From the NCBI RefSeq assembly GCF_013031355.1, contig NZ_WPZO01000007.1, positions 124,001-188,000 of the forward strand: 64,000 nucleotides of DNA, written 5' to 3'. This document shows, in pieces, positions 40,099 to 58,747 of the stretch. Position 1 is the first letter of the stretch. Each line of letters begins with the position of its first letter. The notes beneath the pieces were generated by a model. The model had not been told where the DNA came from and searched no databases. It saw nothing but the letters and a program-made list of their open reading frames with translations. A program made the position numbers and the translations under genes. Source of the DNA: Ruegeria arenilitoris. Lineage in GTDB: Bacteria > Pseudomonadota > Alphaproteobacteria > Rhodobacterales > Rhodobacteraceae.

Positions 40099-41151
40099 GT
40101 GTTCGACCTACCCGCGCAGCGCGCGCATCTCTCCGAAAAGTATGACCTAGCCCCGTCGCCCGAGCTTGCCGAAAGCATGAGCGATATCTACGACCGCATG
40201 TCGCGCGTGGTCTCGCCCGTGGATTGGGCGATCTATGCGCCCTATGTGAAGGCGATCAACGACCTGAAAACCGAGCGCAACGCGGTCATTCTGGGTCATA
40301 ACTATATGACGCCCGAGATTTACCACGGCATTTCCGATTTTGGCGGCGACAGCCTGCAACTGGCGATCAAGGCAACCGAGGTCGAGGTGGATGTAATCGT
40401 GCAATGCGGTGTGCATTTCATGGCCGAAACCTCCAAAATCCTCAGCCCGCAGAAAACAGTGCTGATGCCGGATATGGAGGCTGGATGCTCGCTGGCGGAA
40501 TCGATCACCGCCGAGGGGATCGAGGAAATGCGCCGCCGCTATCCCGGCGCACCAGTGGTGTCCTATGTGAACACCACGGCCGAGGTCAAAGCGGCCTCGG
40601 ACATCTGCTGTACATCGTCCAACGCGGCACAGATCGTTGCCGCGCAGGACAGCGACACGGTCATCATGACCCCGGACCAGTATCTGGCGCAGAACGTGGC
40701 CCGTGACGTTCCACAGAAGAACGTGGTCTGGTGGGAAGGCTCGTGCATCGTCCATGAACAGTACAGCGCCAATGACCTGCGCGACTTCCGCGAATGGAAT
40801 CCGGGCACGCGCCTGATCGCGCATCCCGAATGTCCGCCGGACGTTGTGGCCGAGGCCGACTTCTCGGGTTCGACCAGCGGCATCATCAAATATGTCACCG
40901 ATGAGAAGCCGGAAAAGGCGCTGCTGATCACGGAATGCTCGATGGCGTCCAACATCGCCGACGAATTGCCCGAGGTCGAGTTTGTCGGCCCCTGTAACAT
41001 GTGCCCGTACATGAAGAAGATCACGCTGGAAAAGGTGCTGTTCGCGCTGGACACCATGACCGGGCAGGTCGAGGTTGACGCGGACGTGGCCGACAAGGCG
41101 CGCCTGTCGGTGCAGCGCATGATCGATTTGTCACGTAAACTGGGTATTTGA
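40099..41151 (+). CDS. nadA: Quinolinate synthase
   Basis: About 350 residues. NadA condenses iminoaspartate with dihydroxyacetone phosphate to quinolinate using a [4Fe-4S] cluster. Its three cluster cysteines lie in QCGVHFMAET, ICCTSSNAAQ and GPCNMCPYMKKITLE; VILGHNYMTPEIY is also characteristic. The start is uncertain: the GTG at 40099 gives the family-typical length, while a GTG at 40030 would add 23 residues; neither has a strong ribosome binding site. First gene of nadA-nadB-nadC. Confidence 0.95.
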   Translation: MFDLPAQRAHLSEKYDLAPSPELAESMSDIYDRMSRVVSPVDWAIYAPYVKAINDLKTERNAVILGHNYMTPEIYHGISDFGGDSLQLAIKATEVEVDVIVQCGVHFMAETSKILSPQKTVLMPDMEAGCSLAESITAEGIEEMRRRYPGAPVVSYVNTTAEVKAASDICCTSSNAAQIVAAQDSDTVIMTPDQYLAQNVARDVPQKNVVWWEGSCIVHEQYSANDLRDFREWNPGTRLIAHPECPPDVVAEADFSGSTSGIIKYVTDEKPEKALLITECSMASNIADELPEVEFVGPCNMCPYMKKITLEKVLFALDTMTGQVEVDADVADKARLSVQRMIDLSRKLGI

Positions 41152-41159
41152 TCGGCGAC

Positions 41160-42725
41160 ATGCAGATCGTTGAGACGCCGCGTGTGGTCATCATCGGGGC
41201 CGGGCTGGCGGCGGTTTATACCGCGCTGAAGCTGGCCCCTTGTCCGGTCGTGATGATCTCGCCCGAGCCTTTGGGGTCAGGCGCAAGCTCGGCCTGGGCG
41301 CAGGGTGGCGTCGCAGCGGCGATGGCGCGGACGGACAGCCCCGAAGCCCATGCAGAGGATACCATGCGCGCTGGCGCCGGGTCGGTTCTGCGTGAGGTGG
41401 CCGAGTTCGTAACCCAGGCCGCACCCGAGCATATCTATGACCTGTCCGACCTTGGTACCGGGTTCGACCGCACCGCCGATGGCGGGTTTGTGCAGTCGCG
41501 AGAGGCCGCGCATTCCGCGGCGCGGGTGGTGCGGGTCAAGGGCGATCAGGCCGGGTCCGAGATCATGCGTGCGCTGATCGAGGAACTGAGCCAGACCCCT
41601 CAGATTCAGGTGATCGAAGGCGTGCAGGCCGTCGGATTGGAAAGTGACGGCGCCCAGGTCACCGGCGTTTACCTGACCAATGCAGATATGGCCGCAGCGC
41701 CAACCGTTCTGTTGCGCGGTGCGGCGCATGTACTGGCCACCGGCGGATCATCTGGCCTCTATGCCCAGACCACCAATCCGGCGCGTATCCGGGGGCAGGG
41801 GATCGGCATGGCTGCCCGTGCCGGTGCCCGGATTGCCGACGCGGAATTCGTGCAGTTTCATCCCACCGCAATCGATGTGGGTGAAGACCCGACGCCATTG
41901 GCAACTGAGGCGCTGCGCGGTGAAGGCGCTATTCTGATCGACCGTGATGGCCACCGCTTCATGTCCGACATCCACCCCGATGCCGAACTGGCCCCGCGCG
42001 ACACGGTTGCACGCGCCGTCTACCAGCAGGCGCAGGCGGGCAAACGCCCTGCTTTGGACACGTGCAAAGCCATCGGGGCCGAGATCGCGACGCAATTCCC
42101 CGCCGTGACCGAGGCCTGTCTGCGTAATGGTGTTGACCCCGCGCACGACCCGATCCCGGTGACCGCCTCGGCGCATTATCACATGGGCGGCGTTGAAACC
42201 GATCTGGCAGGGCGCTGTTCTCTGACGGGACTTTGGGTCTGTGGCGAGGCGGCCTCGACCGGGTTGCATGGCGCGAACCGCTTGGCCTCGAACGGATTGC
42301 TCGAGGCGCTGGTTTTTGCCCGCTCTTGCGCGCGGGACATTGCAGATGAGATGACCACGCAGGCGGCGCCCGAAGTGAATGTCCACCTGACCTCCGGCGA
42401 CGAAGCCGCGTTGGATCAGGATGTAGCCGCCCTGCGCCGCACCATGACGGAACATGTGGGCGTGGTGCGCGACGAAACGGGCCTGCGCCACGCCTTGACG
42501 CAGATCGCTGCGCTTGAGGCCAAGCACGCCGAGTCCGAAGTGTTCCTCAACATGACCGCCACGGCCACGCTGATCACCGCCGCCGCTTTGCTGCGCGAGG
42601 AAAGCCGCGGCGCGCATTACCGATCCGACTTCCCCGACCTTATTCCCGGCCCCGGCCAACGCTCGGCCCTGACACTGACCGAGGCACTGGCCCTGCGGGA
42701 CCGCATTGCAAAGGATGCAGCATGA
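41160..42725 (+). CDS. nadB: L-aspartate oxidase
   Basis: A 521-residue flavoprotein. FAD-binding VVIIGAGLAAVYTALKLAP at the N-terminus, SSAWAQGGVAAA, the HPTAI segment and the succinate dehydrogenase-like GLHGANRLASNGLLEALVFA mark the family. It oxidises L-aspartate to iminoaspartate for NadA. The ATG at 41160 is preferred over a TTG overlapping the nadA stop. The stop overlaps the nadC start (ATGA). Confidence 0.95.
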   Translation: MQIVETPRVVIIGAGLAAVYTALKLAPCPVVMISPEPLGSGASSAWAQGGVAAAMARTDSPEAHAEDTMRAGAGSVLREVAEFVTQAAPEHIYDLSDLGTGFDRTADGGFVQSREAAHSAARVVRVKGDQAGSEIMRALIEELSQTPQIQVIEGVQAVGLESDGAQVTGVYLTNADMAAAPTVLLRGAAHVLATGGSSGLYAQTTNPARIRGQGIGMAARAGARIADAEFVQFHPTAIDVGEDPTPLATEALRGEGAILIDRDGHRFMSDIHPDAELAPRDTVARAVYQQAQAGKRPALDTCKAIGAEIATQFPAVTEACLRNGVDPAHDPIPVTASAHYHMGGVETDLAGRCSLTGLWVCGEAASTGLHGANRLASNGLLEALVFARSCARDIADEMTTQAAPEVNVHLTSGDEAALDQDVAALRRTMTEHVGVVRDETGLRHALTQIAALEAKHAESEVFLNMTATATLITAAALLREESRGAHYRSDFPDLIPGPGQRSALTLTEALALRDRIAKDAA

Positions 42726-43570
42726 ACTACCCGGCTTTGCCCGACATGATCCTGGAACCCATGGTGCGCGCGGCGCTGATGGAGGATCTGGGCACCAATG
42801 GCGATATCACCACCCTGACCGTGATCCCGGCGGATGCCACCTATAACGCGCGGCTGAACGCACGCGAGGATGCGGTGGTGTCGGGGATGCAGATTGCCGC
42901 GCTGGCATTCCGTCTGGTCGATCCGTCGCTGCAGATCACGACCCATATTGCCGACGGTCAGCGCTGCGCTACGGGTGATACGCTGATGGAAATCAAAGGC
43001 AGCGCGGCCTCAATCCTGTCGGGCGAGAGGGTGGCGCTGAACTATGCCGGGCGCATGACCGGTGTGGCGACCGCAACGGCGGCGCTGGTGGCCGAGACCA
43101 AAGGCACCGAGGCTCGGATCACTTGCACCCGCAAGACCACGCCCGGCCTGCGCATTGTCGAAAAACAGGCGGTGCTGCATGGCGGTGGTTTCAATCACCG
43201 ATTCTCTTTGTCCGACGCGATCCTGATCAAGGATAATCACATCGCCGCCGCCGGGGGCGTGCGGGCGGTGCTCGAGGCCACTAAGGCTCGCGCTTCGCAC
43301 ATGATGAAAGTCGAGATCGAAGTGGACACGCTGGACCAACTGGCCGAAGTGCTTGAGGTCGGCGGCGCGGACGTGGTGCTGCTGGACAACATGCCGCCCG
43401 AGACCCTGAAACAGGCGGTCGCGCTGGTAGATGGCCGGATCGTCACTGAAGCCTCGGGCAATATCAGCCGTGACACGGTGGCGGCCGTGGCGGCGACCGG
43501 GGTGGATTACATCTCGTCCGGGGCGCTGACTCATTCCTACCGCACCATCGATATCGGGCTGGACTTCTAA
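42722..43570 (+). CDS. nadC: Nicotinate-nucleotide pyrophosphorylase (carboxylating)
   Basis: A 282-residue quinolinate phosphoribosyltransferase. Seen: EDLGTNGDITT, the CTRKTTPGLRIVEKQAVLHGGG active-site stretch in two parts, KDNHIAAAGG, and DVVLLDNMPPETL. It converts quinolinate and PRPP to nicotinate mononucleotide and CO2. Overlaps nadB by 4 bp, completing the de novo NAD operon. Confidence 0.96.
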   Translation: MNYPALPDMILEPMVRAALMEDLGTNGDITTLTVIPADATYNARLNAREDAVVSGMQIAALAFRLVDPSLQITTHIADGQRCATGDTLMEIKGSAASILSGERVALNYAGRMTGVATATAALVAETKGTEARITCTRKTTPGLRIVEKQAVLHGGGFNHRFSLSDAILIKDNHIAAAGGVRAVLEATKARASHMMKVEIEVDTLDQLAEVLEVGGADVVLLDNMPPETLKQAVALVDGRIVTEASGNISRDTVAAVAATGVDYISSGALTHSYRTIDIGLDF

Positions 43571-43655
43571 GCCGCACAGCCTGAACAAAAGTGGCGCGCA
43601 TCTTCAAAACGTGACACACCCTAGGCCTGAAAGATGTTCTGGTCAGGGTGCAGGC

Positions 43656-45908
43656 ATGAAAGACGTCCCCGAAGTGGTCGAGGGTTATCCAGGGCGGTCG
43701 CTTGCCGTGGCCTTTGCAATCGGCATCGCGCTGGTGATCATCCTGTCGGTGTTTCTGTATATGTCGCGCGAAACCGGCAATCGCATTGGCGAGATGCGGC
43801 AGGCCTGGCACAGCTATTCGGTCGAGACCACGCCGCGCGGCTATTGGATTTCCGACATCCGTGCGGATTTCGGCTATGGCGGTCTGATTCACAACTTCAA
43901 GAACTACGTGCTGCGGCAGGACCCGGATTATGGCCCGATCCTGCGCCAGCAGTCGGCCCGCTTGCTGGGGACGATTCAGGCCTATCGCAACTCGGACCCA
44001 TCGCAGGTGGAACTGGACGCCTTGCGGCAGATCGAAGATGTTGCCCTGGAATACACCGGCAACATCCCCTTGATCGAAGAGGGTATCGCCGCAGGCCAGA
44101 CCGCCGAACAGATCGATACCCGAGTGCGCGTCGATGACAGCGGCGCGCTGGCGGCTTTGGCGACGCTGGAAACCCTGTGGGTCGAAGAGCGGGATCGCAG
44201 CCTCTCGGGCATGGTGCGGGCGTTTTCCGATGGCGAGCGGCTGGTGCGTAACTTCTCGGTTCTGCTGGTCGGGCTGATCGTTCTTGTCGGGGTGGTCGCC
44301 ATTCTGACCACATTGCTGATCGCCAACATCCTGCGCACCAACCGGCGCCTGCAGGCCGAACTGACCTTGCGCGAGCAGGTTGAACTGGCCGAACGCAAAT
44401 TGGCCCGTGCGGTTGAACAAAGCCCGACCTCGATCCTGATCACCGATACCGATCTGAATATCGAATACGCCAACCGCAAATTCTTTGACCTCAGCGGGTA
44501 CACGGCGGATGAGGTCTATGGCCATACGCCCAAAATGCTGCAGTCGGGCTATTCCGGGCAGGGGGTCTACAAGGACCTGATGGTGCGGCTGAAACAAGGC
44601 CAAAGCTGGTACGGCGTGTTTCGGAACCTGCGCAAGGATGGCGCGCATTATTGGGTCTCGACGGCCATTTTCCCGCTGGTGGATCAAAACGGTTCTGTCA
44701 CGCATTACATCGGTATCGGCGAGGATATCACCGAGACCCGTCGCACCCGGGAACAATTCGCTCAGGTGCAGAAGATGGAGGCCGTCAACATCCTTGCGGG
44801 CTCGGTCGCGCATGATTTCAACAACGTGCTGATGAGCGTGATCGGCAACGCCGATCTGATCGAATTGGATGCCGACGGGAACGAGGACGTCCAGACCTCG
44901 GTCAGTCATATCCGGATTGCGGCGCGGCGGGCGCAAGCGCTGGTGCGCAAGATGCTGACCTTTGCCCGCCAGCGCCCCCGCAACCCGCAGCGCGGTGACT
45001 TGGTGAAAGCTACGCAAGAGGCGCTGGAGCTGATCAAGGTCTCGGCCCCGCCCAGCATTGAGACCCGCTTTGACGTTGAGATCGACGCTGCCTTTTCTGA
45101 CTTCGACACCACCCTGTTTTTCCAGACCCTGCTGAACCTGTGTCACAACGCGTTTGAGGCGATGGGTGACCAGCCCGGTGAGGTGGTGCTGCGGATCAGC
45201 CGGGCGGATGACGACGCGCTCGATGATTTGCCGGACGAGGCGATCGGCGTGATCCGTCTGGATGTCGCCGACACCGGGCCGGGCATGAGCGACGAGGTAC
45301 AGCAAAAGGTGTTCGAGCCGTTTTTCTCGACCAAACCGGTGGGCAAAGGGACCGGTCTGGGGCTGACCATCGTGCATAATAGTGTCGAGGAATCCCACGG
45401 CCGAGTTGAGCTGCATTCGGAACCCGGTAAGGGCACCCGGTTCAGTCTGTTTTATCCGATGATGCCCGCGCTCAGCCCCGAACAGCAGGCCGAGCTTCGC
45501 GCGGTGGCCGGGGATGAACACGTTCTGCTGGTCGATGACGATGAAAACGTCCTGTATGTTACGCGCCGGTTGCTGACCCGCTATGGCTATCGGGTCGAAG
45601 CCTATTCCGATCCGCAACGGGCGCTGGAGGCGTTTCGCGCAGCACCCGAGAGCTATGATGTCCTTTTGACGGACCTGATGATGCCGGGGCTGACCGGTAC
45701 CGATCTGATCGCCGCAGCGCGGTCTCTGCGGCCCGATATTCCGACCATTTTGGTCAGCAGTTACTTTGACGATGCAGAAACGCCGGATGATGGCGACTCG
45801 ACCGTACGCGTTCAGAAACCTGTTGATGTCCAAAGTCTTGCACGCATTATCCGCACATCTTTGCATCAGGTTTCGAAACAAAAATTAACAACTCTTCACA
45901 GACCTTAA
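43656..45908 (+). CDS. Membrane-bound hybrid histidine kinase (PAS, HisKA, HATPase, REC)
   Basis: 750 residues. TM1 about 15-36, a periplasmic sensor of about 160 residues (38-199), TM2 about 202-226, a PAS domain (about 248-365), dimerisation domain with phospho-His386 (AGSVAHDFNNVLMSVIG), ATPase with LCHNAFEAMG, DTGPGM and GTGLGLTIVHN, and a C-terminal receiver with phospho-acceptor Asp673 (LLTDLMMPG). The periplasmic domain has no family I recognise. It sits just upstream of the di-heme peroxidase/Rieske/Mo-enzyme genes on the same strand, 98 bp from the first of them, and is a good candidate sensor for that cluster. AGGG is well placed before the ATG. Confidence 0.92.
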   Translation: MKDVPEVVEGYPGRSLAVAFAIGIALVIILSVFLYMSRETGNRIGEMRQAWHSYSVETTPRGYWISDIRADFGYGGLIHNFKNYVLRQDPDYGPILRQQSARLLGTIQAYRNSDPSQVELDALRQIEDVALEYTGNIPLIEEGIAAGQTAEQIDTRVRVDDSGALAALATLETLWVEERDRSLSGMVRAFSDGERLVRNFSVLLVGLIVLVGVVAILTTLLIANILRTNRRLQAELTLREQVELAERKLARAVEQSPTSILITDTDLNIEYANRKFFDLSGYTADEVYGHTPKMLQSGYSGQGVYKDLMVRLKQGQSWYGVFRNLRKDGAHYWVSTAIFPLVDQNGSVTHYIGIGEDITETRRTREQFAQVQKMEAVNILAGSVAHDFNNVLMSVIGNADLIELDADGNEDVQTSVSHIRIAARRAQALVRKMLTFARQRPRNPQRGDLVKATQEALELIKVSAPPSIETRFDVEIDAAFSDFDTTLFFQTLLNLCHNAFEAMGDQPGEVVLRISRADDDALDDLPDEAIGVIRLDVADTGPGMSDEVQQKVFEPFFSTKPVGKGTGLGLTIVHNSVEESHGRVELHSEPGKGTRFSLFYPMMPALSPEQQAELRAVAGDEHVLLVDDDENVLYVTRRLLTRYGYRVEAYSDPQRALEAFRAAPESYDVLLTDLMMPGLTGTDLIAAARSLRPDIPTILVSSYFDDAETPDDGDSTVRVQKPVDVQSLARIIRTSLHQVSKQKLTTLHRP

Positions 45909-46006: not shown

Positions 46007-47113
46007 ATGATGACCAAAGCCAGAACGTGGTTCTCGGCGCTGTCGACAGTTTCATTGCTGACGATCTGCGCTGCGTTACCGGTACACCAGGCCCAGGCCG
46101 ATGAGCCGGGCCCGGTAGAAGCCATAGAGTTCGACCCAGCCAAGGCGGCCCTTGGCAAACGTTTGTTTTTTGATCCAAGACTTTCCGGCGATACCGAGCT
46201 GTCCTGCGCCAGCTGCCACCAGCCGGAATTGGGTTTCACCGACGGGCAGGCCCTGTCGGATGCCTATGCGGGCAACCTGCATTTCCGCAACGTGCCGACG
46301 CTGATCAACAGCGCCAAGCGCGCGGCGTGGTTCCATGATGGGCGGATCGGCACCAACCTGAATGACGTGACCCGCGAAAGTATCACCGAGACATATTCCA
46401 TGAACATGGACATGCGTCTGATGCAGGAACGCATCAAGCAGGACCCGGTCTATGTCGAGATGTTTGAAGCTGCCGGATTTGGCGAGCCCTCGAACGGCGG
46501 CGTCCGCAACGCAATCCCGGAATATCTGAAAACGCTGATCTCGCGTGGCGCTCCGTTCGACACGGGTGAGATGTCGGAGGAAGCCAAGGCGGGCTATGAG
46601 CTGTTCAAGGCCAGCGGCTGTAACTCCTGCCACGCGGGCGAGCGGTTCACCGATGACCTGCCGCACAATATCGGTGTGGGCGACAACCCCGATATCTGGG
46701 CGACCCCCGAACGTCACATCACCTTTGTGGCGATGATGAAGTTCCTGGGCGTTGCGAACTACATGAACCTGCGCGCCGACCCCGGAGCGTACATCCGCAC
46801 CCACACCGCCGACACGTTCGGCACCTTCATGACCCCCACACTGCGCGAACTGACCTATACCGCGCCGTATATGCACAACGGCTCGCTGGCAACGCTCGAG
46901 GACGTGGTGGCCTTCTACAACGCCGGTGGCGGTGACGATGAAAACAAGGATCCGCGCATCAAGCCGCTGAACCTGAACGAAACCGAGCAAGCGCAGCTGG
47001 TGGCCTTCCTCAAGGCGTTGTCCGGCGAGCCGCTGACCGGCCCCGACTTCGTCGCCGAGGGTATCGATACGGACTATGCGCCGATCGAAAACTGGCAAGA
47101 CGCGACAAACTGA
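46007..47113 (+). CDS. Di-heme cytochrome c peroxidase-family protein (IdrP-type)
   Basis: 368 residues. A Sec signal (about 1-31) is followed by two heme c sites: CASCH (Cys67, Cys70, His71) and CNSCH (Cys205, Cys208, His209), in the spacing of bacterial di-heme peroxidases (MauG/CcpA family). The C-terminal block FMTPTLRELTYTAPYMHNGSLATLEDVV is typical. It would reduce H2O2 in the periplasm. Next to a second peroxidase, a Rieske protein and a molybdopterin oxidoreductase, it corresponds to IdrP1 or IdrP2 of iodate-reducing bacteria; which one cannot be told by eye. The ATG pair at 46007/46010 follows AAAGGGG. Confidence 0.9.
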   Translation: MMTKARTWFSALSTVSLLTICAALPVHQAQADEPGPVEAIEFDPAKAALGKRLFFDPRLSGDTELSCASCHQPELGFTDGQALSDAYAGNLHFRNVPTLINSAKRAAWFHDGRIGTNLNDVTRESITETYSMNMDMRLMQERIKQDPVYVEMFEAAGFGEPSNGGVRNAIPEYLKTLISRGAPFDTGEMSEEAKAGYELFKASGCNSCHAGERFTDDLPHNIGVGDNPDIWATPERHITFVAMMKFLGVANYMNLRADPGAYIRTHTADTFGTFMTPTLRELTYTAPYMHNGSLATLEDVVAFYNAGGGDDENKDPRIKPLNLNETEQAQLVAFLKALSGEPLTGPDFVAEGIDTDYAPIENWQDATN

Positions 47114-47124
47114 GGAGTGGACCC

Positions 47125-48312
47125 ATGAAAGACCTTTCGTCTTACTTCAAAGGCACAATCGCCACCGCTGCCCTGTTTGCCGTCCTGGGATCACAGGCCA
47201 TTGCGGAAACCAGCATGGAGATTGAGGCCGGTATTGGCGGGGCAGACCCCGACCCGGATGCGCCATTGGTGGCATTGGGCGAGCCTCCAATTCCGCTGGA
47301 CAACCCGCAGACCGACGCCAAGATCGAACTGGGCAAGATGCTGTTCTTCGATCCGCGTCTGGGTGGCAACCCGTCGACACCGTGCTCGGCCTGTCACATG
47401 CCGGATATCGGTTGGGATGTCGAAGCTCCGATTTCATTCGGGTATCCCGGCACGACCCACTGGCGCAACAGCCAGACCATCGTGAACTCGGCCTATTACG
47501 GCAAACTGTTCTGGGCGGGCTCGTCCAAGAGCCTTGAGAGCCAGGCCAAATCCGCCGCAGGCGGTGCGGTCGCCGGGAACGGCGAGGCCGACATGATGGA
47601 GGCCCGACTGGCCTTCGTTCCGGAATATGTGGAGCGGTTCAACGATGTCTTCGGCGATCAGTGGCCGCGCGTCGGTAACGCATGGCGGGCCATCGCCGCG
47701 TTTGAGCGAACCATCGTTCAGACCGACACGCCCTTCGACAACTACCTGCGCGGGGATGATGCGGCGCTGACCGAGGAACAGAAACGCGGGCTGGAGCTGT
47801 TCACCGGCAAGGCGCAATGTTCCGAATGCCACAACGGCGCGCTGCTGTCGGATGAGAAATACTACAACACCGGCGTGCCCGCTTTTGACGGGTGGCAGGA
47901 TGACGGTCTGGCGCAGGTTACCTTCCGGTATGAGCTGTATGCCAAAGGCTCGACCGAAGAGATGTATCGCCACACCAAGGACGACCCCGGCTTCTATTTC
48001 CGCACCAAGGAAAAGGCCGACAAGGGCAAGTTCCGCACACCGTCTCTGCGCTATACCCTCTATACCGAACCCTACATGCACAACGGCATGTTGGCGACGC
48101 TTGAGGATGTGGTCGAATTCTACAACCAAGGCGGCGGCGAGAACGAGTTCTCGGCCAACAAGTCCCAGCTGATCCAACCCCTTGGTCTGAATGACCAGGA
48201 GAAATCGGATCTGGTGGCCTTCCTGAAATCCCTGTCCGGCGAGGAAATCCTGATCGAGGAACCCGACCTGCCGGACTACCAGCCGCTTCCTGCGGTTGCA
48301 GCAGAGGAGTAA
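47125..48312 (+). CDS. Second di-heme cytochrome c peroxidase-family protein (IdrP-type)
   Basis: 395 residues. Sec signal (about 1-28, ending AIAETS), then CSACH (Cys87, Cys90, His91) and CSECH (Cys232, Cys235, His236), with the C-terminal FRTPSLRYTLYTEPYMHNGMLATLEDVVEFYNQGG block. It shares the family with the previous gene but is clearly not a recent duplicate. In the iodate reductase model the two peroxidases remove the H2O2 released during iodate reduction. It starts 11 bp after its neighbour and ends 5 bp before the Rieske gene, so all are one operon. Confidence 0.9.
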   Translation: MKDLSSYFKGTIATAALFAVLGSQAIAETSMEIEAGIGGADPDPDAPLVALGEPPIPLDNPQTDAKIELGKMLFFDPRLGGNPSTPCSACHMPDIGWDVEAPISFGYPGTTHWRNSQTIVNSAYYGKLFWAGSSKSLESQAKSAAGGAVAGNGEADMMEARLAFVPEYVERFNDVFGDQWPRVGNAWRAIAAFERTIVQTDTPFDNYLRGDDAALTEEQKRGLELFTGKAQCSECHNGALLSDEKYYNTGVPAFDGWQDDGLAQVTFRYELYAKGSTEEMYRHTKDDPGFYFRTKEKADKGKFRTPSLRYTLYTEPYMHNGMLATLEDVVEFYNQGGGENEFSANKSQLIQPLGLNDQEKSDLVAFLKSLSGEEILIEEPDLPDYQPLPAVAAEE

Positions 48313-48317
48313 GCGTC

Positions 48318-48887
48318 ATGACAGATCATAACGCAACCGGATGCAGCTGTTCGGGCGAGGCCAAAAAAGCCTGCACCGTGAACCGCCGCCAGTTCCTGTT
48401 CGCCTCGGGTGCCACGACCTTTGCCGTGATGGTGGCGATGCCCACCCGTCACGGTCAGGCCGAACAGGTTCCCGCCTTGGTCTCCACCTATCCGCGCAAG
48501 CTGATCGGCAAACTTTCCGAACTGGAGCAGGATGTCCCGGTCGAATTCTACTACCCGGATGAGGGCGACTATTCAGATTCGATCCTGGTCAAGACCGGCG
48601 TGGAGAGCGGCGGCGGCATCGGTCCGCAAAAGGATGTTGTGGCGTTCAACCTGACCTGCACGCATCAGGGCGGATCGCTCTATGACACCTACAAAGCGGA
48701 TCACAAGGTGCTGGGCCCGTGCCCGCTGCACCTTTCCACCTATGACGTGACACGGCACGGCATCCTCGTCTCGGGGCAGGCCTACCAGTCGCTGCCGCAG
48801 GTCCTTTTGGAACTGGACGGCGATGACATCTACGCCGTTGGCATGTTCGGCCTGATCTACGGCCGTTACGACAACCTGATTGCATAA
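48318..48887 (+). CDS. idrB: Rieske [2Fe-2S] subunit, IdrB/AioB-type, with Tat signal
   Basis: 189 residues. The N-terminus has a twin-arginine signal (NRRQFLFASGATTFAVMVA, 22-40). The Rieske cluster ligands are CTH (Cys114, His116) and CPLH (Cys135, His138), as in the small subunit of arsenite oxidase and of iodate reductase. It would pass electrons between the large subunit and periplasmic carriers. The large subunit has no signal of its own, so this one probably carries the folded pair through the Tat system. Iodate versus arsenite specificity is inferred from the two peroxidase neighbours. Confidence 0.88.
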   Translation: MTDHNATGCSCSGEAKKACTVNRRQFLFASGATTFAVMVAMPTRHGQAEQVPALVSTYPRKLIGKLSELEQDVPVEFYYPDEGDYSDSILVKTGVESGGGIGPQKDVVAFNLTCTHQGGSLYDTYKADHKVLGPCPLHLSTYDVTRHGILVSGQAYQSLPQVLLELDGDDIYAVGMFGLIYGRYDNLIA

Positions 48888-48901
48888 GGGGAGACGGTAT
48901 C

Positions 48902-51583
48902 ATGGCAACCCCGTATTACGTACCCGAAACCAACGTCCCGCTGCCGCCCAAAGGCGCCGAGGTCATCTCGACCGCCTGCGATTACTGCATCGTGGCCTGT
49001 GGTTACAAAGTCTATCGCTGGCCCGTAACGGCCAAACCCGGCGGCCCTTCCGCGGACGAAAACGCATTCGGCGAGGATTTCCCCGTTGCACCGCTGGGTG
49101 CCTGGGTCGCGCCGAACCAGCACAATATCGTTCTGCACAAAGGTCAGCCCCACCACGTGGTGATCATTCCCGACAAGGACACGCAATACGTCAACACCGA
49201 CGGCGACAGCTCCTTGCGGGGCGGGTGTATCGCGCAGAAATGCTATAACCCGCAGACACCGACGCGCGACCGTCTGAAGACGCCACTGATGCGGATCTAT
49301 GGCACCCTGATGCCGGTTCCGTGGGATCTGGCGCTGGATGTGGCGGCTGAGGTGGGCAACCATGTCATCGCCAAACACGGCACCAATGCCTATGGCGTGA
49401 AGACCTTCAGCTATCAGTATATCGAGAACACCTATGCGATTTCGAAATACGCGCTGCGCCATATCAACACCGCGAACTTCACCTTCCACGACACGCCATC
49501 CGACGTGACCTCGACCCCCGGTTTCCGGGATGCAGGTTTCGACAATTTCGGCCCGTCGTATGAGGATTGGCGGGATGCGGAAACTCTGTTGGTCTGCGGT
49601 ACTGATCCGTATGAGACCAAGACGATCCTCTATACCCAGTGGATGATGAAGGGGATGCAGAACGGTCAGAAGGAAATCTATCTGATCCCGCGCCGCTCCG
49701 CTGGTGTGGCCCATGCGGAAAAGATGGGTGGCCTGCATATAGATGTTTTGCCCGGCACCGACCTGCTGGTCGTCAACGCCATCGCCCGCGTCATCGTGGA
49801 AAATGGCTGGGAAGACAGCGACTGGATTCAGAAATGGGTCAACAACAAGTGGGAAAGCTCGTCGGGCTTCGGCCAGGGCACCCGGAACACGCCATGGCAG
49901 TGGCGCACGACCTGGGGCAAATTCCAGACCAAAGGGTTTGAGGACTGGAAAGAGTGGCTGCTGTCGCAGGACGAATTCTCGCCCGAGAACGCAGCCGCCA
50001 TGGCCGAGATCGACGTGCAGAAAATCTATACTGCTGCCGAATGGCTTGCCAAACCAAAGGATGACGGCTCGCGCCCCAAAACCTCGATCATGATCGAGAA
50101 AGGGTTCTACTGGTCGAACAACACCGGCAACACGCAGGCGATCTCCGCGCTGGGCATCATCTGTGGCTGTGGTGGACGTCCGGGTCAGGTCATTGGCCGG
50201 GCCGGGGGGCACCAGCGGGGCGGTGTGAAGGGCGGGAAATACCCGCGCAACAAATCGCCCGAGAAACTGCCGGGTCGCCGTCGCCGCGCCATGGATACCG
50301 ACCGGTATCTGATCGCAGGTCATACCCGTATGGCCCATGTGATCGGCACCACCTGGATCCAGTCCATGTGCGGATCGCAGCAACTGGCCGACAAGTTTGA
50401 GGAGCTCACTGTCCGCAACCCGAACCAGATCGCCTCTTTCGACAAGCAAGAGATGATCGACACGCTGAAGGCCCGCGCCGACAGCGGCGGTATGGTGGTG
50501 ATCAATCAGGACATCTACCTGCAGGACCCGATCGGCAACCGCTACGCTGACATCGTGTTCCCCGCAGCGACCTGGGGTGAAGAGGATTTCCTGCGGGCCA
50601 ACGGCGAACGCCGCCTGCGTCTGTATCAGAAGTTCTATGACGCCCCCGGTGCAGCCAAGCCCGATTGGTGGATCATCGCGCAACTCGCACAGCGAATGGG
50701 CTTTGACGGGTTCGACTGGCAGAACTCGAACGAGGTCGCCGAAGAGGCCGTGCGCTTTACCCGCGGGTCGCGCAAGGACTTCCACGCGGTCTACCGACTG
50801 GCCAAGATGGAAGGCAAAGGGCTGCATCAGAAGGTCCGTGAGTTTGGCACCGACGGTGTGCAATGCCCGGTCATGCTGGATGCCGATGGTGTCACGCTGA
50901 TTGAAACCAAGCGTCTGCACGACACGACCCGAACCCTGCCCGATACCGGCGCAGCGGGTAAGGATGTGTTCAACAAGAAGCTGACGCATTTCAACAGTCA
51001 GACCGGCAAGTGCAACATCCAGAAATCGCCATGGGGTCTGTTCTCGGATTATTGGGAATGGCTGAAACCCAACAAGGAAGAAGGCGAGCTTTGGGCCACC
51101 TCCGGCCGGATCAACGAACGCTGGCAATCCGGCTTCGACGACCGCCGCCGCCCGTATATCGTGCAGCGCTGGCCGGAAAACTGGGTTGAGATTCACCCCG
51201 ACGATGCGGCCGAGCGTGGCATCGAAAGCGGCGACTATGTGATGGTCTATTCGGAACGGGTTCCGGGCAACAAGACCACGCTGCTGGGTGTGGAAGGCGA
51301 TGACTTCCAGTTCTCGAAACTGATGGAGAACGGGCATATCGAACTGACCAAAGCGGCGATCACCGCCGTGGCCATGGTCACGCCCGCCATCAAGAAGAGC
51401 GTGGTCTACATGGACTTCCTGCACATGCAGCAGCCCGCCAACGCGCTTGAGGGCCGGATCGTCGACTGGATCAGTGGCAACTACAACTACAAGATGGGCG
51501 TTGCCAAGCTGCGCAAACTGGGGCCGAGCCCCTACAAGACCTCGTTCCGTACGATGTCCTTTGCACCGCGCGACATCGCCTGA
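48902..51583 (+). CDS. idrA: Molybdopterin oxidoreductase large subunit, IdrA-type (iodate reductase)
   Basis: 893 residues, DMSO reductase superfamily, arsenite oxidase-like branch. The N-terminal [3Fe-4S] site is Cys26-x2-Cys29-x3-Cys33 with Ser104 in the fourth place (x70 spacing), exactly the pattern of AioA. The remaining domains bind bis-MGD. It has no signal peptide, as expected for a partner of a Tat-targeted Rieske subunit. In arsenite oxidisers the neighbours are usually a cytochrome c and arsenic genes; here two di-heme peroxidases precede it, as in the idrABP1P2 set of dissimilatory iodate reducers. I therefore favour periplasmic iodate reduction (IO3- to iodide). AioA remains the alternative until tested phylogenetically. 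Confidence 0.85.
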   Translation: MATPYYVPETNVPLPPKGAEVISTACDYCIVACGYKVYRWPVTAKPGGPSADENAFGEDFPVAPLGAWVAPNQHNIVLHKGQPHHVVIIPDKDTQYVNTDGDSSLRGGCIAQKCYNPQTPTRDRLKTPLMRIYGTLMPVPWDLALDVAAEVGNHVIAKHGTNAYGVKTFSYQYIENTYAISKYALRHINTANFTFHDTPSDVTSTPGFRDAGFDNFGPSYEDWRDAETLLVCGTDPYETKTILYTQWMMKGMQNGQKEIYLIPRRSAGVAHAEKMGGLHIDVLPGTDLLVVNAIARVIVENGWEDSDWIQKWVNNKWESSSGFGQGTRNTPWQWRTTWGKFQTKGFEDWKEWLLSQDEFSPENAAAMAEIDVQKIYTAAEWLAKPKDDGSRPKTSIMIEKGFYWSNNTGNTQAISALGIICGCGGRPGQVIGRAGGHQRGGVKGGKYPRNKSPEKLPGRRRRAMDTDRYLIAGHTRMAHVIGTTWIQSMCGSQQLADKFEELTVRNPNQIASFDKQEMIDTLKARADSGGMVVINQDIYLQDPIGNRYADIVFPAATWGEEDFLRANGERRLRLYQKFYDAPGAAKPDWWIIAQLAQRMGFDGFDWQNSNEVAEEAVRFTRGSRKDFHAVYRLAKMEGKGLHQKVREFGTDGVQCPVMLDADGVTLIETKRLHDTTRTLPDTGAAGKDVFNKKLTHFNSQTGKCNIQKSPWGLFSDYWEWLKPNKEEGELWATSGRINERWQSGFDDRRRPYIVQRWPENWVEIHPDDAAERGIESGDYVMVYSERVPGNKTTLLGVEGDDFQFSKLMENGHIELTKAAITAVAMVTPAIKKSVVYMDFLHMQQPANALEGRIVDWISGNYNYKMGVAKLRKLGPSPYKTSFRTMSFAPRDIA

Positions 51584-51596
51584 TGACAGCTTTCCA

Positions 51597-51718
51597 GGGG
51601 GCGGACGCCATGCCGCCCCCCGGGTTCGGCCCCACTGCAGAAGGGGCCTTGAACCGGCCCCCCGGTTCACCTGGAAGGCAGGCATCGGTTGGGAAACCTG
51701 CCTTCCACTTTCCCAACC
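51597..51718 (+). promoter_or_regulatory. Five perfect inverted repeats with a possible H-type pseudoknot
   Basis: Between the idrA-like stop and the likely start of the HEAT gene: 8-bp stem 51597-51604/51613-51620; 6-bp stem 51628-51633/51643-51648; 7-bp stem 51651-51657/51662-51668; 10-bp stem 51673-51682/51697-51706; 10-bp stem 51687-51696/51709-51718. The last two interlock: the 5' arm of the fifth lies in the loop of the fourth, so together they make an H-type pseudoknot or two mutually exclusive hairpins. All pairings are perfect Watson-Crick. There is no T run, so it is not an intrinsic terminator; an mRNA processing, stability or translation-control element is more likely. Confidence 0.75.
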
Positions 51719-51747
51719 TCTCCCAACCGCAGACATGGCAGCTTGAT

Positions 51748-53949
51748 ATGAACATGCATTCCGATACCGCATTGCGCGACGAGGCCACCGGCCTGTTTTC
51801 CGAATACGCAAAATCCGACTATGACGTGATCCGCCTGCGCGCCATTCAGGCCCTGACTGCCATTGGCGCAAGTAACAGCCCGGCGCTGGTCGAGGCGCTG
51901 CTGGATGATGATGAAGACGTGCGCCAGGACGCTGCCCAAGCGCTGGGCGCGCTGGGCGTGCAAGAGGCCGCGCCGCAACTGCTTGAAAACCTGATCCACG
52001 ATCCCTGCGGCGAGGTGAAACTGGCCTGTGTGACCGCCTTGGCCGAGCTGAAATCCGAAGACGCCGCACCGTACCTGCGCACCCTTGTGACCGGACGCGG
52101 GGATGAGATCACCTGGGACGAGGATGAGCTGCATCAGGACGAGTGGGACGACTGGCTGGATACTCAGATCGCCGCGATCAAGGCGCTGGGCAAGATGGGT
52201 GACGCAACTGCGATTGAACCCATCGTCATGGCCCTGATGGACGAAGACGGGCAGGAATTGGGAGATGTGGCCTGTGAGGCGCTGGGCCGGATTGGGGAAC
52301 CGTCGGTGCCGACTTTGGGCGTGTTCACGCAGTCTTCCAACCGCCGCTTGCGCCACCGCGCCCTGCGGACGTTGGCCGCGATTGGAGGGGCCGAAGCCGA
52401 AGCCATTTTGCGCAAGGCCGTCACCGACAAGGACGGGGCCGTGCGCCTGATCGCCTATGAGGCGCTGATGCCGAACGATCCGGCTCTGGTCGAACAGGCC
52501 CTGACTGACACGGTCGAAGACATCCGCATCGCGGCGCTGAACCTCTCGGGCTTTTCCGAACCCGAACTGCTGGACCGCATGATGCGCGACCCCGGTGCCA
52601 AGGTGCAGCTGGCGCTGATCGAACGGTTGGACCGAACCACGCCGATCACCGATCAGGAGGACCTGCGCTGGCAGGTGCTGGATTTCCTTGCCACCGGCCA
52701 ACAGCCTGAGGTTTCGGCGCAGGCGCTGGGCCTGTTGGCCGCGCTGGCCCCGGAATTGGTGGCGGATCGTCTGAACGCGCTGTTTTCGGTCGATGCGGAT
52801 GATCTCATGGCCGAACGTCTGCAATGGGCCATCGTCGATGCGCTGGCAACGTCTCCTCTGCGCGAAGCGGCCGAGTGGTTGCAGCGCGCCTGCCGGTCTC
52901 CGTTCCGGTCGGTGCGGCTGAAGGCCGTGGCATCGCTGGCGATGATCGTCACCGATGCAGAGCGCCCGCATGTGAACCAGCAGCAGGGCCGCGAATTGCT
53001 GCTGTCTTTTGCTTTGGCACCGATGCCCGTTTCGGAAGAAGACCCCATCGACACGCCGCAAACCGACATCGCCGCGCTGGAAGAAGCCGGTCTGGACGTG
53101 TCCGAGGGTGGGGAAAACGGCCCGACCTCCAGCCTTGGCGCAATCCTCGGCCATGATGCCATCGCCGCCGAGATGACACAGGAGGCCGAGGAGGACGAAG
53201 TCCAACCCCTGACCCCGCGCGAACAGGCGTTGCTGGCCAAGGCGACACGCCACCCCAAACGCCGCCGCGTCGCGCTGGATGACAATGCCGAAGCGTTGGA
53301 GCGTGAAACCCGCATGTCCGCCATCCGCCTGCTGGGAGAGGTGAAGGGGATGCAGATCATGCTGGCGCAGATCGCCAAGGACCCCGAGACCGAGATCGCG
53401 CAACAGACCCTTGCCGCGCTGGGTGTTGCCGTGGCGCGTCACGGCTCGGAACTGGATGAAACCCAACTGGTCGATCTAATCACCCAAGGGTTATCGCACA
53501 CGGATTCCGCGCTATCGCTGCAGGCGCTGAAGCTGCTGCAACAGGCCGATCTGCCACCGCAAGACGCATTGCGCGGTAAGCTACGGGCGATTCTGAAAAC
53601 CGGAGACACCCCATTCCGCATCGATGCCATGCACATTCTGACCAGATGGGATAGCACTCCGGATGTGGCGCGCAGTCTGCTGGACGACGTCTCGGCCCCG
53701 GTACGGCAGGCGGCGATGCGGCTGTTGTCGGAAACCGCCCCGGATCAGGCGGGGGCGGCCATCGTGCCCTTCCTGCTGGCCAATCCCGAGCAGCGGATCG
53801 TGACCTATGTCAATGACAGCGCCCCCGCGGTCGTGACAATTGGGCGGGAATTGCTGACCGGGCTGCGCGACGAAGACCGCCGTGCCCTATGGCCGGTGAT
53901 GATCAGCGCGCTGGCCGATCTGCTGGGGAAACCCTCGCGGGTGGCCTGA
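51748..53949 (+). CDS. HEAT-repeat protein of the oxidoreductase cluster
   Basis: About 733 residues, almost entirely made of HEAT/PBS-lyase-type helical repeats: VRQDAAQALGALGVQEAAPQL, VKLACVTALAELKSEDAAPYL, LGDVACEALGRIGEPSVP and many more. No signal peptide is seen, so it is probably cytoplasmic and could be an assembly or maturation chaperone for the molybdoenzyme. An ATG at 51583 overlapping the idrA stop would add 55 residues, but that stretch consists of the hairpin DNA and is low in sense, so the ATG at 51748 is preferred. Neither start has a strong ribosome binding site. The role is an inference from position. Confidence 0.8.
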   Translation: MNMHSDTALRDEATGLFSEYAKSDYDVIRLRAIQALTAIGASNSPALVEALLDDDEDVRQDAAQALGALGVQEAAPQLLENLIHDPCGEVKLACVTALAELKSEDAAPYLRTLVTGRGDEITWDEDELHQDEWDDWLDTQIAAIKALGKMGDATAIEPIVMALMDEDGQELGDVACEALGRIGEPSVPTLGVFTQSSNRRLRHRALRTLAAIGGAEAEAILRKAVTDKDGAVRLIAYEALMPNDPALVEQALTDTVEDIRIAALNLSGFSEPELLDRMMRDPGAKVQLALIERLDRTTPITDQEDLRWQVLDFLATGQQPEVSAQALGLLAALAPELVADRLNALFSVDADDLMAERLQWAIVDALATSPLREAAEWLQRACRSPFRSVRLKAVASLAMIVTDAERPHVNQQQGRELLLSFALAPMPVSEEDPIDTPQTDIAALEEAGLDVSEGGENGPTSSLGAILGHDAIAAEMTQEAEEDEVQPLTPREQALLAKATRHPKRRRVALDDNAEALERETRMSAIRLLGEVKGMQIMLAQIAKDPETEIAQQTLAALGVAVARHGSELDETQLVDLITQGLSHTDSALSLQALKLLQQADLPPQDALRGKLRAILKTGDTPFRIDAMHILTRWDSTPDVARSLLDDVSAPVRQAAMRLLSETAPDQAGAAIVPFLLANPEQRIVTYVNDSAPAVVTIGRELLTGLRDEDRRALWPVMISALADLLGKPSRVA

Positions 53950-53963
53950 ACCCGGAGGGACAG

Positions 53964-54449
53964 ATGACGATTTCGCTGAAACTGAGTGCAGCGATCCTTG
54001 CGGGGGTGATGACCTTTGCCCCCGCCGCACAGGCCGAGGATATTCCCGAAGTTGCCGTGGTGCACCAGATCATAGACCTGAACGCCGACACCCCGGCTCA
54101 TGCCTTTCGGTTCGAGCCCAAGCTGCTGCAGGTACCGGCCGGATCGACCGTCCGTTTCAAAGGCTCGACCGGGCGGCATACGGTGACCTCGATCATTCGC
54201 ATGATCCCGGTGGGCGCGCGCGCGTTCGAGATCCGCGGCCAGCCCGAAATGGACCTGACCTTCGACAAAGAAGGCGTCTATGGCATCCGTTGCCGCGTGC
54301 ATGGGCGACATGGCATGGTGATGTTGCTGATTGTGGGTGATCCCAGCTCGAACCTGGAAGAGGCGCGCGCCTATTTGCCGAAATTGGGCGAGGCCGAACA
54401 GGCCGGGTTTGAAGAGCTGTTCGAACAATTGGAGGATCAAAATGGCTGA
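53964..54449 (+). CDS. Pseudoazurin-like cupredoxin
   Basis: 161 residues with a Sec signal (1-24, ending AQA). The type 1 copper ligands are in the exact pseudoazurin spacing: His72, Cys110, His113, Met118 (38, 3 and 5 residues apart). The C-terminus has an extra helical tail of about 35 residues. Such proteins shuttle single electrons in the periplasm, here probably to or from the Rieske/Mo enzyme or the peroxidases. It starts 14 bp after the HEAT gene behind a good GGAGGGA site and overlaps moeA by 8 bp, so it belongs to the same operon. Confidence 0.88.
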   Translation: MTISLKLSAAILAGVMTFAPAAQAEDIPEVAVVHQIIDLNADTPAHAFRFEPKLLQVPAGSTVRFKGSTGRHTVTSIIRMIPVGARAFEIRGQPEMDLTFDKEGVYGIRCRVHGRHGMVMLLIVGDPSSNLEEARAYLPKLGEAEQAGFEELFEQLEDQNG

Positions 54450-55686
54450 TGGATGCGCCTGCGACCGGCACGCTCAAATGTATTTGACGGTGTCCGAGGC
54501 TCTGACCCGGGGTCTGGCCGTGGCCGATCCGGTTGCCGATACCGAGGTGTTGCCGCTGATCGATGCCATCGGCCGAGTGCTGGCCGAGGATTGCACCAGC
54601 AAGGTGGACATGCCGGCCTTCGACAATTCGGCCATGGATGGCTATGCGGTTCGGACGGTTGAACTGGGCGATGGTCCGACCTTTGATATGCCCGTCGCCG
54701 GGCGCGTGGCCGCCGGGGACAGCGGTGCCCATGATGCGCCCGTGGGTACCGCTCTGCGGATATTTACCGGCGCTCCGGTGCCGGCGGATTTCGATGCCGT
54801 TTTGATGCAGGAGGATTGCGAGACCACCGCCGACGGCATCCGCTTTGCCCGCCGTCCCAAGCCCGGCCAGCATATTCGCCGCGCAGGCGAGGACCTGAAG
54901 GCCGGTGCCCCTATCCTGCGGCGCGGATGCGAAATCACCGCGCGTGAGGCCGCCGCACTGGCCTCGGCCGGGTATGGCGAGGTCAAGGTGTATCGCAAGC
55001 TGAGGGTCACGATCTTTTCGACCGGCAGCGAGCTGCGTCAGCCCGGTGAGGCATTGGGCCCCGGCCAGATTTACAACTCGAACCGCTACATGCTGCGGGC
55101 GCTGTTGGACAAGCCGTGGATCGACCTTAACGACAAAGGCCCGGTTGAGGATGATCCCGAACTGTTGGAGCAGGTGCTGCGTGAGGCCTGCGATACCTCT
55201 GACCTGATCGTCACCACGGGGGGTGTGTCGGTGGGCGACGAAGACCACATGCCGCGCCTGTTTGCCGAGATCGGCGGCCAGACCGATGTGATGAAGGTGG
55301 CGATGAAGCCGGGCAAACCGATTATGTTCGGCCGTAGGGGCGATGCGCTCTATGTCGGGCTGCCGGGCAATCCGGTTTCGGCCTATGTGACATGGCAGAT
55401 CATCGGATCGCATATGATGGCGCGCCGGGCCGGTCTGTACCACGCCCCGCATACTCCGGAACAGGCGGTTCTGGCCGAACCGCTGGAGCGTCGCGCCGGG
55501 CGTCAGGAATACCGACCCGTAACGATCGAGGGCTCGGCACCTGACGGCACCCCGCGGCTGCGCCTGATGGCAGCATCCTATAGCGGTCGGGTCGCGTTGC
55601 TGGCGCAGGCGGATGGTCTGGCGATCATTCCGGCCGAAACCGAGACGCTGCCGCAAGGCCACGGGTTGCAGTTTCTGCGTTTCTGA
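54442..55686 (+). CDS. moeA: Molybdopterin molybdenumtransferase MoeA
   Basis: 414 residues. MoeA inserts molybdate into adenylylated molybdopterin. Seen: MPAFDNSAMDGYAVRT, FTGAPVPADFDAVLMQED, the MoCF motif TTGGVSVGDEDHMP and GLPGNPVSAYV. Preceded by GGAGGATC, overlapping the cupredoxin gene by 8 bp. It lies at the end of the molybdoenzyme operon, where it could supply cofactor at the same time as the enzyme is made. Whether the genome has a second moeA cannot be seen here. Confidence 0.94.
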   Translation: MADGCACDRHAQMYLTVSEALTRGLAVADPVADTEVLPLIDAIGRVLAEDCTSKVDMPAFDNSAMDGYAVRTVELGDGPTFDMPVAGRVAAGDSGAHDAPVGTALRIFTGAPVPADFDAVLMQEDCETTADGIRFARRPKPGQHIRRAGEDLKAGAPILRRGCEITAREAAALASAGYGEVKVYRKLRVTIFSTGSELRQPGEALGPGQIYNSNRYMLRALLDKPWIDLNDKGPVEDDPELLEQVLREACDTSDLIVTTGGVSVGDEDHMPRLFAEIGGQTDVMKVAMKPGKPIMFGRRGDALYVGLPGNPVSAYVTWQIIGSHMMARRAGLYHAPHTPEQAVLAEPLERRAGRQEYRPVTIEGSAPDGTPRLRLMAASYSGRVALLAQADGLAIIPAETETLPQGHGLQFLRF

Positions 55687-55781
55687 CGCTGCTGAATAGG
55701 GCAGCCGCGTTCTTGCATGAAACGATCAGCAGCAGCTACAACTGTTCCGCGCCAGCTTAACACGCCCGCTTGGATCTGATT

Positions 55782-56507
55782 ATGGTTAAAGAACATATCC
55801 TTGTCGTCGATGATGACCCGCAGATAACGTCCTTTCTGCAGCGCTACCTTGAAAAGCAGGGTTGCCGGGTCAGCTGCGCCGCAGACGGCAATGCGATGGA
55901 CGCTGTTCTGGAAACCTCAGAGATCGACCTGATCCTGCTGGATATCGGTCTGCCTGGCCGCAACGGGTTCGACATCACGCGAGAGCTGCGGGTGAGTTCC
56001 AACATTCCGATCATCGTTCTTTCGGGCCGGGATGAGATTTTCGATCGGGTTGTCGGGTTGGAGTTTGGGGCCGATGACTACATCACCAAACCGTTTGAGG
56101 CGCGTGAGGTTCTGGCCCGCATCCGCACCGTTCTGCGCCGGGCTCGACCCGAAGAGAAAGCGGCCAACGGGGACGAGATGCCTCAGGTCAAGTTCGGTGA
56201 CTGGGTTCTGAATGTGAATGAGCGCACCCTGACCGCCGCAGGTGCGTCCGGGGCCACGCCTTTGACGACCACCGAATTTGATGTGCTGCTGGCCTTTGTG
56301 ACGAACCCGCACATGGTCTTTTCCCGCGATCAGCTGCTGGATAAGGCCCGCGGGCGCGAAACTATTGTTGGCGACCGGACCATCGACGTGCATGTCGCGC
56401 GGCTGCGCAAGAAGATCGAGCCCGATCCCGCCGCGCCGACCTTTATCAAAACGGTGCACGGGATCGGCTATTGTTTTGCCGCCAATGTGCGCAAAATCTC
56501 GGCCTAG
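55782..56507 (+). CDS. OmpR/PhoB-type response regulator
   Basis: 241 residues. Receiver domain (about 4-117): acidic pocket DDD, phospho-acceptor Asp in LILLDIGLPG, Ser/Thr in IIVLSGRDE, Lys in ITKPFEA. DNA-binding winged helix (about 135-235): LTTTEFDVLLAFVTNPHMVFSRDQLLDKARG and TIDVHVARLRKKIEP. Ninety-five bp after moeA with no kinase gene next to it; the hybrid kinase at 43.7 kb, upstream of the same cluster, is a candidate partner. Converges with the GNAT gene. Confidence 0.92.
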   Translation: MVKEHILVVDDDPQITSFLQRYLEKQGCRVSCAADGNAMDAVLETSEIDLILLDIGLPGRNGFDITRELRVSSNIPIIVLSGRDEIFDRVVGLEFGADDYITKPFEAREVLARIRTVLRRARPEEKAANGDEMPQVKFGDWVLNVNERTLTAAGASGATPLTTTEFDVLLAFVTNPHMVFSRDQLLDKARGRETIVGDRTIDVHVARLRKKIEPDPAAPTFIKTVHGIGYCFAANVRKISA

Positions 56508-57573: not shown

Positions 57574-57636
57574 GGTTCATATTTGGGAATCACGTTCGTA
57601 TCTGAGAATACTATCTAAAATCATTCGCAGCACAAC

Positions 57637-57664
57637 AAAAAAGGGCGCAGATATATCTGCGCCC
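57637..57664 (-). terminator. Terminator of the iron-binding protein gene
   Basis: A perfect 22-bp palindrome (57643-57664, arms GGGCGCAGATA/TATCTGCGCCC) followed on the - strand by six T (57637-57642). Confidence 0.85.
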
Positions 57665-57692
57665 ACTTCTACTGCTCGGTTTTTTGTCCGGA

Positions 57693-58712: not shown

Positions 58713-58747
58713 GTTTCCCAACTTTGAAAGCTGTGGTGGTTTATTTC

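Follow-up and report, generated by a model that had tools for sequence, protein, structure and literature searches.

The characterised iodate reductase (Idr) systems, IdrABP1P2 of Pseudomonas sp. SCT, Denitromonas sp. IR-12, Azoarcus sp. DN11 and Aromatoleum TC-10, combine a molybdoenzyme large subunit (IdrA), a Rieske subunit (IdrB) and two di-heme peroxidases. According to the published model, periplasmic IdrAB reduces iodate to hypoiodous acid, yielding iodide, and the peroxidases clear peroxide (PMC8692401). The two peroxidase genes are described as always preceding idrAB (PMC8801600), and the order idrP2, idrP1, idrB, idrA as common to strains SCT and IR-12 (PMC10989891). Among the Alphaproteobacteria, idr clusters are reported for three marine aerobes, Roseovarius azorensis, Notoacmeibacter marinus and Aliiroseovarius sediminilitoris, which almost completely reduced 2 mM iodate in static culture (PMC11445184). 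Arsenite oxidase, AioAB, has Pfam domains, a [3Fe-4S] motif and a Rieske partner in common with Idr, and its arsenite site consists of His195, Glu203, Arg419 and His423 of AioA (PMC3758308). The present analysis concerns an idr operon in a stretch of 64,000 nucleotides from Ruegeria arenilitoris (assembly GCF_013031355.1, contig NZ_WPZO01000007.1, positions 124,001 to 188,000 of the forward strand), here termed the window, to which all coordinates refer. The operon belongs to the Idr and not the Aio side of the family, and what is new about it is a lineage-specific fifth gene encoding a HEAT-repeat protein, together with a fixed change in the substrate pocket, within the known Idr enzyme kind.

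The idr operon and its relation to arsenite oxidase

Four open reading frames make up the core of the locus:

46007-47113, + strand: di-heme peroxidase in the idrP2 position (368 residues; PF03150 CCP_MauG, 3.3e-39; CxxCH at 67 and 205)
47125-48312, + strand: di-heme peroxidase in the idrP1 position, adjoining idrB (395 residues; PF03150, 3.7e-41; CxxCH at 87 and 232)
48318-48887, + strand: idrB, Rieske subunit with a probable twin-arginine (Tat) leader (189 residues; PF00355, 4.1e-5; TIGR02694; CTH-X18-CPLH, that is CXHX18CX2H)
48902-51583, + strand: idrA, molybdoenzyme large subunit (893 residues; PF18465, PF00384, PF01568; Ser204 at the position of AioA Glu203)

The genes are separated by 11, 5 and 14 bp, so that the short gaps and the gene set described in an earlier note on this DNA are borne out, as is the motif C-X2-C-X3-C-X70-S in the large subunit. 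The same note took the order peroxidase, peroxidase, idrB, idrA to be unusual, which is mistaken, since this is the published Idr order (PMC8801600; PMC10989891) and also that of the Azonexus hydrophilus record. The latter serves here as a stand-in for the characterised Idr lineage, by its gene neighbourhood and not by a reference sequence; the window's peroxidases are 43% (idrP2 position) and 58% (idrP1 position) identical to the first and second peroxidases of its cluster. The nearest named record for the large subunit, from R. arenilitoris HKCCD9208, is 99-100% identical. As in the characterised systems, IdrA has the CX2CX3CX70S motif and IdrB has CXHX18CX2H, described as the IdrB motif of DN11 (PMC10149662). 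A Tat leader on IdrB only is probable: NRRQFLF lies near its N-terminus, where the Pfam TAT model reaches 19.5 bits, below its cut-off of 22.7. Read by eye, both peroxidases, for which Idr would call for Sec leaders, have hydrophobic N-termini, and no leader is visible on IdrA.

The locus was compared with the best 80 of 228 confirmed large-subunit stretches, supplemented by loci from further genomes and plasmid records. Neighbouring genes were counted over distinct loci, by lineage, wherever the record left room of at least 1000 bases upstream for a peroxidase gene or at least 900 bases downstream for a HEAT gene. An upstream peroxidase gene is present in 89/89 loci of the window's lineage, which argues that the four-gene arrangement does not reflect chance, as well as in 3/3 of the 57-62% group, 4/4 from outside the class and 4/5 characterised-like loci, the single miss (L104) lying beside a cut idrA. 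None precedes the large-subunit gene in the 21 AioA loci, in agreement with the earlier statement that arsenite oxidase clusters lack the peroxidase pair.

The first candidate was arsenite oxidase, the name that automatic annotation would give to both subunits. The NCBIfam arsenite-oxidase models exceed their cut-offs (404 against 359 bits for TIGR02693, 109 against 96 for TIGR02694), the closest solved structures are AioA proteins, the [3Fe-4S] motif is shared, and a MoeA-like gene, which also follows in the window, stands beside aio in NT-26 (glp). These models reach Idr too, however, and the Azonexus record itself bears an arsenite-oxidase name; C-X2-C-X3-C-X70-S is likewise not diagnostic for Idr because it is reported for AioA (PMC3758308). 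Four lines of evidence separate the two enzymes. First, starting from 133 loci whose large-subunit frame spans 780 residues or more, removal of repeated places and of rows more than 93% identical to a retained one left 82 rows, and in the resulting tree a branch with 100% support and a length of 3.1 changes per column divides 62 Idr rows, the window included, from 20 AioA rows. As this was a quick tree with support from the Shimodaira-Hasegawa-like approximate likelihood ratio test (SH-aLRT) only and with a long-branch warning, above all for L126, only this split is relied on and not the order within the Idr side. A position firmly inside the AioA clade, which the earlier note had named as the outcome speaking against an Idr assignment, is thus not what the tree shows. 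Second, every one of the 82 rows retains His195, Arg419 and His423, whereas the Glu203 position holds Glu in 20/20 AioA rows and in 0/62 Idr rows, with Ser in the window. Third, the spacing n in the Rieske motif CXH-Xn-CX2H is 18 in all 92 IdrB proteins read from the window's lineage (four loci had none to read), as opposed to 15 in 21/22 AioB proteins and 13 in that of Thermus. X18 itself is not strict for Idr, because n is 18 or 19 in five characterised-like loci and 18 or 20 in four outside the class, with X19 and X20 occurring in three loci each. Fourth, an upstream peroxidase gene is found here and in none of the AioA loci. Because the tree split, the loss of Glu203, the X18 spacing and the peroxidase genes agree, the enzyme is placed with Idr, as the earlier note had proposed. 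AioA is moreover 27-35% identical in the compared loci, and a divergent arsenite oxidase is a very improbable explanation for this operon.

A separate Idr lineage and its HEAT-repeat gene

Judged by sequence, the window's enzyme is not simply the characterised Idr and is a member of a separate, mainly alphaproteobacterial lineage. Its IdrA is 48.7% identical to that of Azonexus. Upstream, the Azonexus cluster carries a kinase together with a sigma-54 regulator, instead of which the window has an OmpR-type regulator in the neighbourhood of idr; downstream, it carries genes for a c-type cytochrome and MoaA (moaA) in the place of the window's HEAT gene. Accessory genes of the Azonexus type are reported for the characterised islands, each in part of the strains, DN11 being described as lacking the cytochrome (PMC10149662; PMC8801600). 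Among the tree rows, 51 belong to the window's lineage, whose members are mostly Alphaproteobacteria according to record titles and group codes, and six are characterised-like. Three of these six come from the same family as the window, in which both lineages occur. The Glu203 position holds Ser in 51/51 rows of the window's lineage and Asp in 6/6 of the characterised-like one. The four rows that represent other classes, namely L080, L083, L085 and L138 (this one from a genome of the same phylum), stand closer to the window's lineage; three of them carry Ser at this position and one carries Ala. L126 has Ser. Culture-collection strains that host the window's lineage include Ruegeria halocynthiae DSM 27839, R. 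intermedia DSM 29341, Roseibium album CECT 5095 and Oricola cellulosilytica JCM 19534. The mass of IdrA alone fails to separate the lineages. Among 12 genomes compared, none combines the published R. azorensis masses of IdrA (99.4 kDa), IF-2 (89.1 kDa) and SecA (99.9 kDa), the IF-2 of G256 and the IdrA of G191 being truncated. Thiothrix also stands in for the characterised enzymes, by its downstream genes only, as the record ends inside the gene. At the level of genera, that of G879 contributes one further characterised-like genome (IdrA of 98.9 kDa), the other matches in the genus of G191 are AioA-like, and the genus of G173 is represented by that genome alone. The locus is patchy within the window's own genus, since G043 of this genus gave no idrA match.

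Downstream of idrA, and beyond the interval 46007-51583 covered by the earlier note, the run of genes continues with two elements:

51584-51747, + strand: structured RNA stretch (164 bases, GC-rich, three to four hairpins, possible pseudoknot)
51748-53949, + strand: HEAT-repeat protein, proposed fifth gene (PF13646, 1e-35; about 730 residues; the frame is open from 51583, and relatives favour a start at 51748)

Of the 92 distinct loci with room in the window's lineage, 90 have a same-strand HEAT gene after idrA, as do 2/2 of the 57-62% group, as opposed to none of 22 AioA loci. Within the best 80 loci alone it is present in 76, with L078 and L080 ending too near idrA to judge. Alignment of 24 of the encoded proteins shows one family with a common W/D-rich stretch (consensus EEIxWDEDEF..GWDDWLDIQ) and, inside an acidic linker, a central PTSTLxAIL motif; no leader was seen in this alignment. 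Genome-wide profile searches gave the same picture. In a family sample of 295 genomes from 294 genera, matches below 1e-100 were obtained in 13 of the 14 genomes whose IdrA is of the window's type (71-100% identity) and in 0/281 others, one further genome being weakly matched (8.5e-17); in a class sample of 385 genomes, matches below 1e-20 occurred in 11/12 genomes with an IdrA of at least 57% identity and in 0/373 others, besides two weak matches (1.6e-18 and 1.9e-16). Both samples include the window's genome, and the p-values (Fisher, 9e-22; 2e-20 for the class) ignore relatedness and use a boundary between strong and weak matches chosen after the matches were seen. In the two IdrA genomes without a HEAT match, G095 and G352, idrA is cut by a contig end, and in G578 a different gene follows idrA and the HEAT gene lies about 13.5 kb away on the same contig. 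No match was found in the characterised-like genomes G879, G1035, G173, G156 and G691 or in G685 from outside the class. The HEAT gene is therefore near-exclusive to the window-type IdrA lineage, with the qualification that distant relatives elsewhere could be missed, because the profile was built from genes beside idrA.

Three side observations concern the gene that follows idrA. One metagenome-assembled genome (OFTM323) has two Idr loci, L060 and L069, one with a HEAT gene and the other with neither a HEAT gene nor a recognised idrB. On contig C56 of G1030 (L173, L174, L196) an idrA split into two frames is followed by a HEAT gene, and the two other idrA genes found in that genus are characterised-like. 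Three characterised-like loci from the window's family (L100, L104, L135) have another, apparently shared gene directly after idrA.

TorD, NarJ and DmsD are dedicated molybdoenzyme chaperones and compact helical proteins. The HEAT protein would resemble them in its proposed role only, the cytoplasmic binding of an apo-enzyme before export; at some 730 residues and built of HEAT repeats, it is described differently from these compact proteins. It is probably cytoplasmic and dedicated to the window-type enzyme. Since it has no visible leader and is tied to one exported molybdoenzyme, a maturation partner of IdrA is the simplest reading of its role, although the chances of this being correct are about evenly balanced. 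A credible if less favoured possibility is that the protein acts as a regulator or scaffold, for instance of the sensor kinase or the export machinery. HEAT solenoids have many functions, and the solved structures matching the profile, among the matches listed, comprise designed alpha-Rep proteins as well as armadillo or HEAT proteins with diverse functions; the maturation role, for its part, is inferred, and the Ruegeria RNA before the HEAT gene may let its expression diverge from that of idrA. Conversely, the HEAT gene stays by idrA in the Ruegeria loci L013 and L016, in whose fetched flanks no relative of the kinase or regulator was found. In the literature searched, whose supplements and figures were outside reach, no mention of a HEAT gene with idrA was found; in the accessible text of PMC8692401 and PMC8801600 "heat" refers to heat-killed controls, and the word is absent from PMC10746228.

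The RNA stretch folds better than its shuffled counterparts (z -3.1). Across 13 Ruegeria rows 97.3% of cells are paired, compared with 40-64% when the partners are slid, a comparison which is favoured by drawing the structure from the window's own row. Two-sided changes occur in seven cells, a value reached by 0/500 shuffles, but they affect three pairs, a number that 84/500 shuffles attain. The possible pseudoknot joins two nearly invariant stretches. The stretch is missing from L018, and for 51584-51747 nothing in Rfam scored above the gathering threshold. Scanning for promoters and terminators gave no more than shuffled sequence did. The element may set expression of the HEAT gene apart from that of idrA.

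Neighbouring genes and the proposed route to iodate

The operon is preceded by a sensor kinase, and the run beyond the HEAT gene ends with three further genes:

43611-45908, + strand: PAS hybrid sensor kinase, upstream of the operon (PF13426, PF00512, PF02518, PF00072)
53964-54449, + strand: pseudoazurin-like cupredoxin, candidate electron donor (PF00127, 1.3e-5; TIGR02375 below cut-off; start set by eye at the signal peptide, frame open from 53889)
54442-55686, + strand: MoeA-type molybdenum cofactor protein (PF03453, PF00994, PF03454; start set by eye)
55770-56507, + strand: OmpR-type response regulator (PF00072, PF00486)

The kinase accompanies idr in many, not all, Ruegeria loci, and the OmpR-type regulator, similar versions of which lie near idr in Cohaesibacter, Pseudovibrio and Oricola, is possibly its partner. 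The genes at 40030-43570, presumably nadA-nadB-nadC, stand directly upstream of the kinase in some Ruegeria loci (L005, L006, L011, L012) and were not found near idr in others. At the far end, the block is closed by three genes on the - strand (56504-58763), which are kept in several Ruegeria and which we take to encode a GNAT acetyltransferase, an XRE-type regulator and an iron-type ABC binding protein.

A general role as electron donor was considered, and rejected, for a cytochrome c encoded next to idrA. Azonexus has one directly downstream, whereas a rough screen for a leader plus CxxCH in HEAT-lineage loci with long flanks found none within 5 kb of idrA; one or more candidates appeared at 5-9 kb in seven of these loci (L041, L054, L057, L061, L072, L077 and L079). 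A cupredoxin gene, as in the window, also lies near idrA in Roseibium-type loci and on a Vibrio plasmid. On the latter (L085; Vibrio sp. THAF190c, 1.7 Mb) it is convergent and lies 77 bp after idrA, in an Idr cluster without a HEAT gene.

In the proposed mechanism, IdrA would contain molybdenum and a [3Fe-4S] cluster, and IdrB a Rieske centre and the Tat leader by which both subunits would be exported, giving a periplasmic enzyme. Before export, the HEAT protein would most likely bind IdrA for cofactor loading or quality control. Electrons would pass from the quinol/bc1 pool to a small carrier, perhaps the cupredoxin, and on through IdrB and IdrA to iodate, which would be converted to hypoiodous acid and further to iodide, and the two di-heme peroxidases would clear peroxide or other oxidants. 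The periplasmic reaction, the joint export and the removal of peroxide are carried over by analogy from the other Idr lineage, where peroxide removal is likewise a model; we infer the substrate, the cupredoxin as donor and the place and role of the HEAT protein.

Substrate and wider meaning

The host is likely to reduce iodate. This expectation is strengthened by the iodate reduction of the marine idr-bearing alphaproteobacteria (PMC11445184), which belong to the same class and carry the same four genes, and whose IdrA proteins may belong to either lineage. As a whole, an iodate reductase operon of the alphaproteobacterial Idr lineage, with the mechanism and HEAT role proposed above, is the best explanation and may be held with fair assurance. 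Several observations nevertheless weigh against it, beginning with the arsenite-oxidase model scores given above. No enzyme with activity data could be placed in the window's lineage, and the tested R. azorensis enzyme may be of either lineage. In addition, 53 alignment columns, one of them in the pocket, are fixed or nearly fixed differently from the characterised-like lineage. A HEAT gene follows idrA in 0/7 characterised-like and 0/3 outside-class loci with room and is not next door in two loci of the window's own lineage (L069 and L120); since characterised-like and outside-class loci do without it, it is no general need of Idr. Finally, only some of the loci have a cupredoxin gene close to idrA.

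Some of these differences could also mean that an Idr-fold reductase has turned to another oxyanion or oxidant, the change from Asp to Ser and the HEAT protein marking the shift. Such a change of substrate would fit the uniform Ser in one lineage against Asp in the other, the further fixed differences, a fifth gene specific to the lineage and the contrast between an OmpR-like regulator here and a sigma-54 regulator in Azonexus. Yet the peroxidase genes, whose presumed role lies in iodate chemistry, are retained in every locus of the lineage with room, many hosts are marine by their record titles and iodate is present in that setting (PMC11445184), and homologues of 50-80% identity are counted as IdrA in a published survey (PMC8692401), which together make another substrate quite unlikely. 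Rather doubtful, too, is the bolder proposal that this lineage represents a second reductase for iodate or another oxyanion, distinct in function and with its own pocket chemistry, and its HEAT protein a new and exclusive structural class of molybdoenzyme maturation factor.

For an iodate reductase of the alphaproteobacterial lineage, the favoured reading, the consequences reach beyond Ruegeria. An ocean survey uses IdrA homologues as markers of one function (PMC8692401). Because the window's lineage differs by a pocket change that is fixed and by a fifth gene of its own, this assumption needs testing lineage by lineage. The HEAT gene offers a simple marker of this lineage, and if the reading as a distinct reductase were true it would supply a five-gene marker for ocean data; it may also show how such molybdoenzymes are built. 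Idr in marine alphaproteobacteria may feed iodide to surface water and thereby affect ozone chemistry (PMC11445184).

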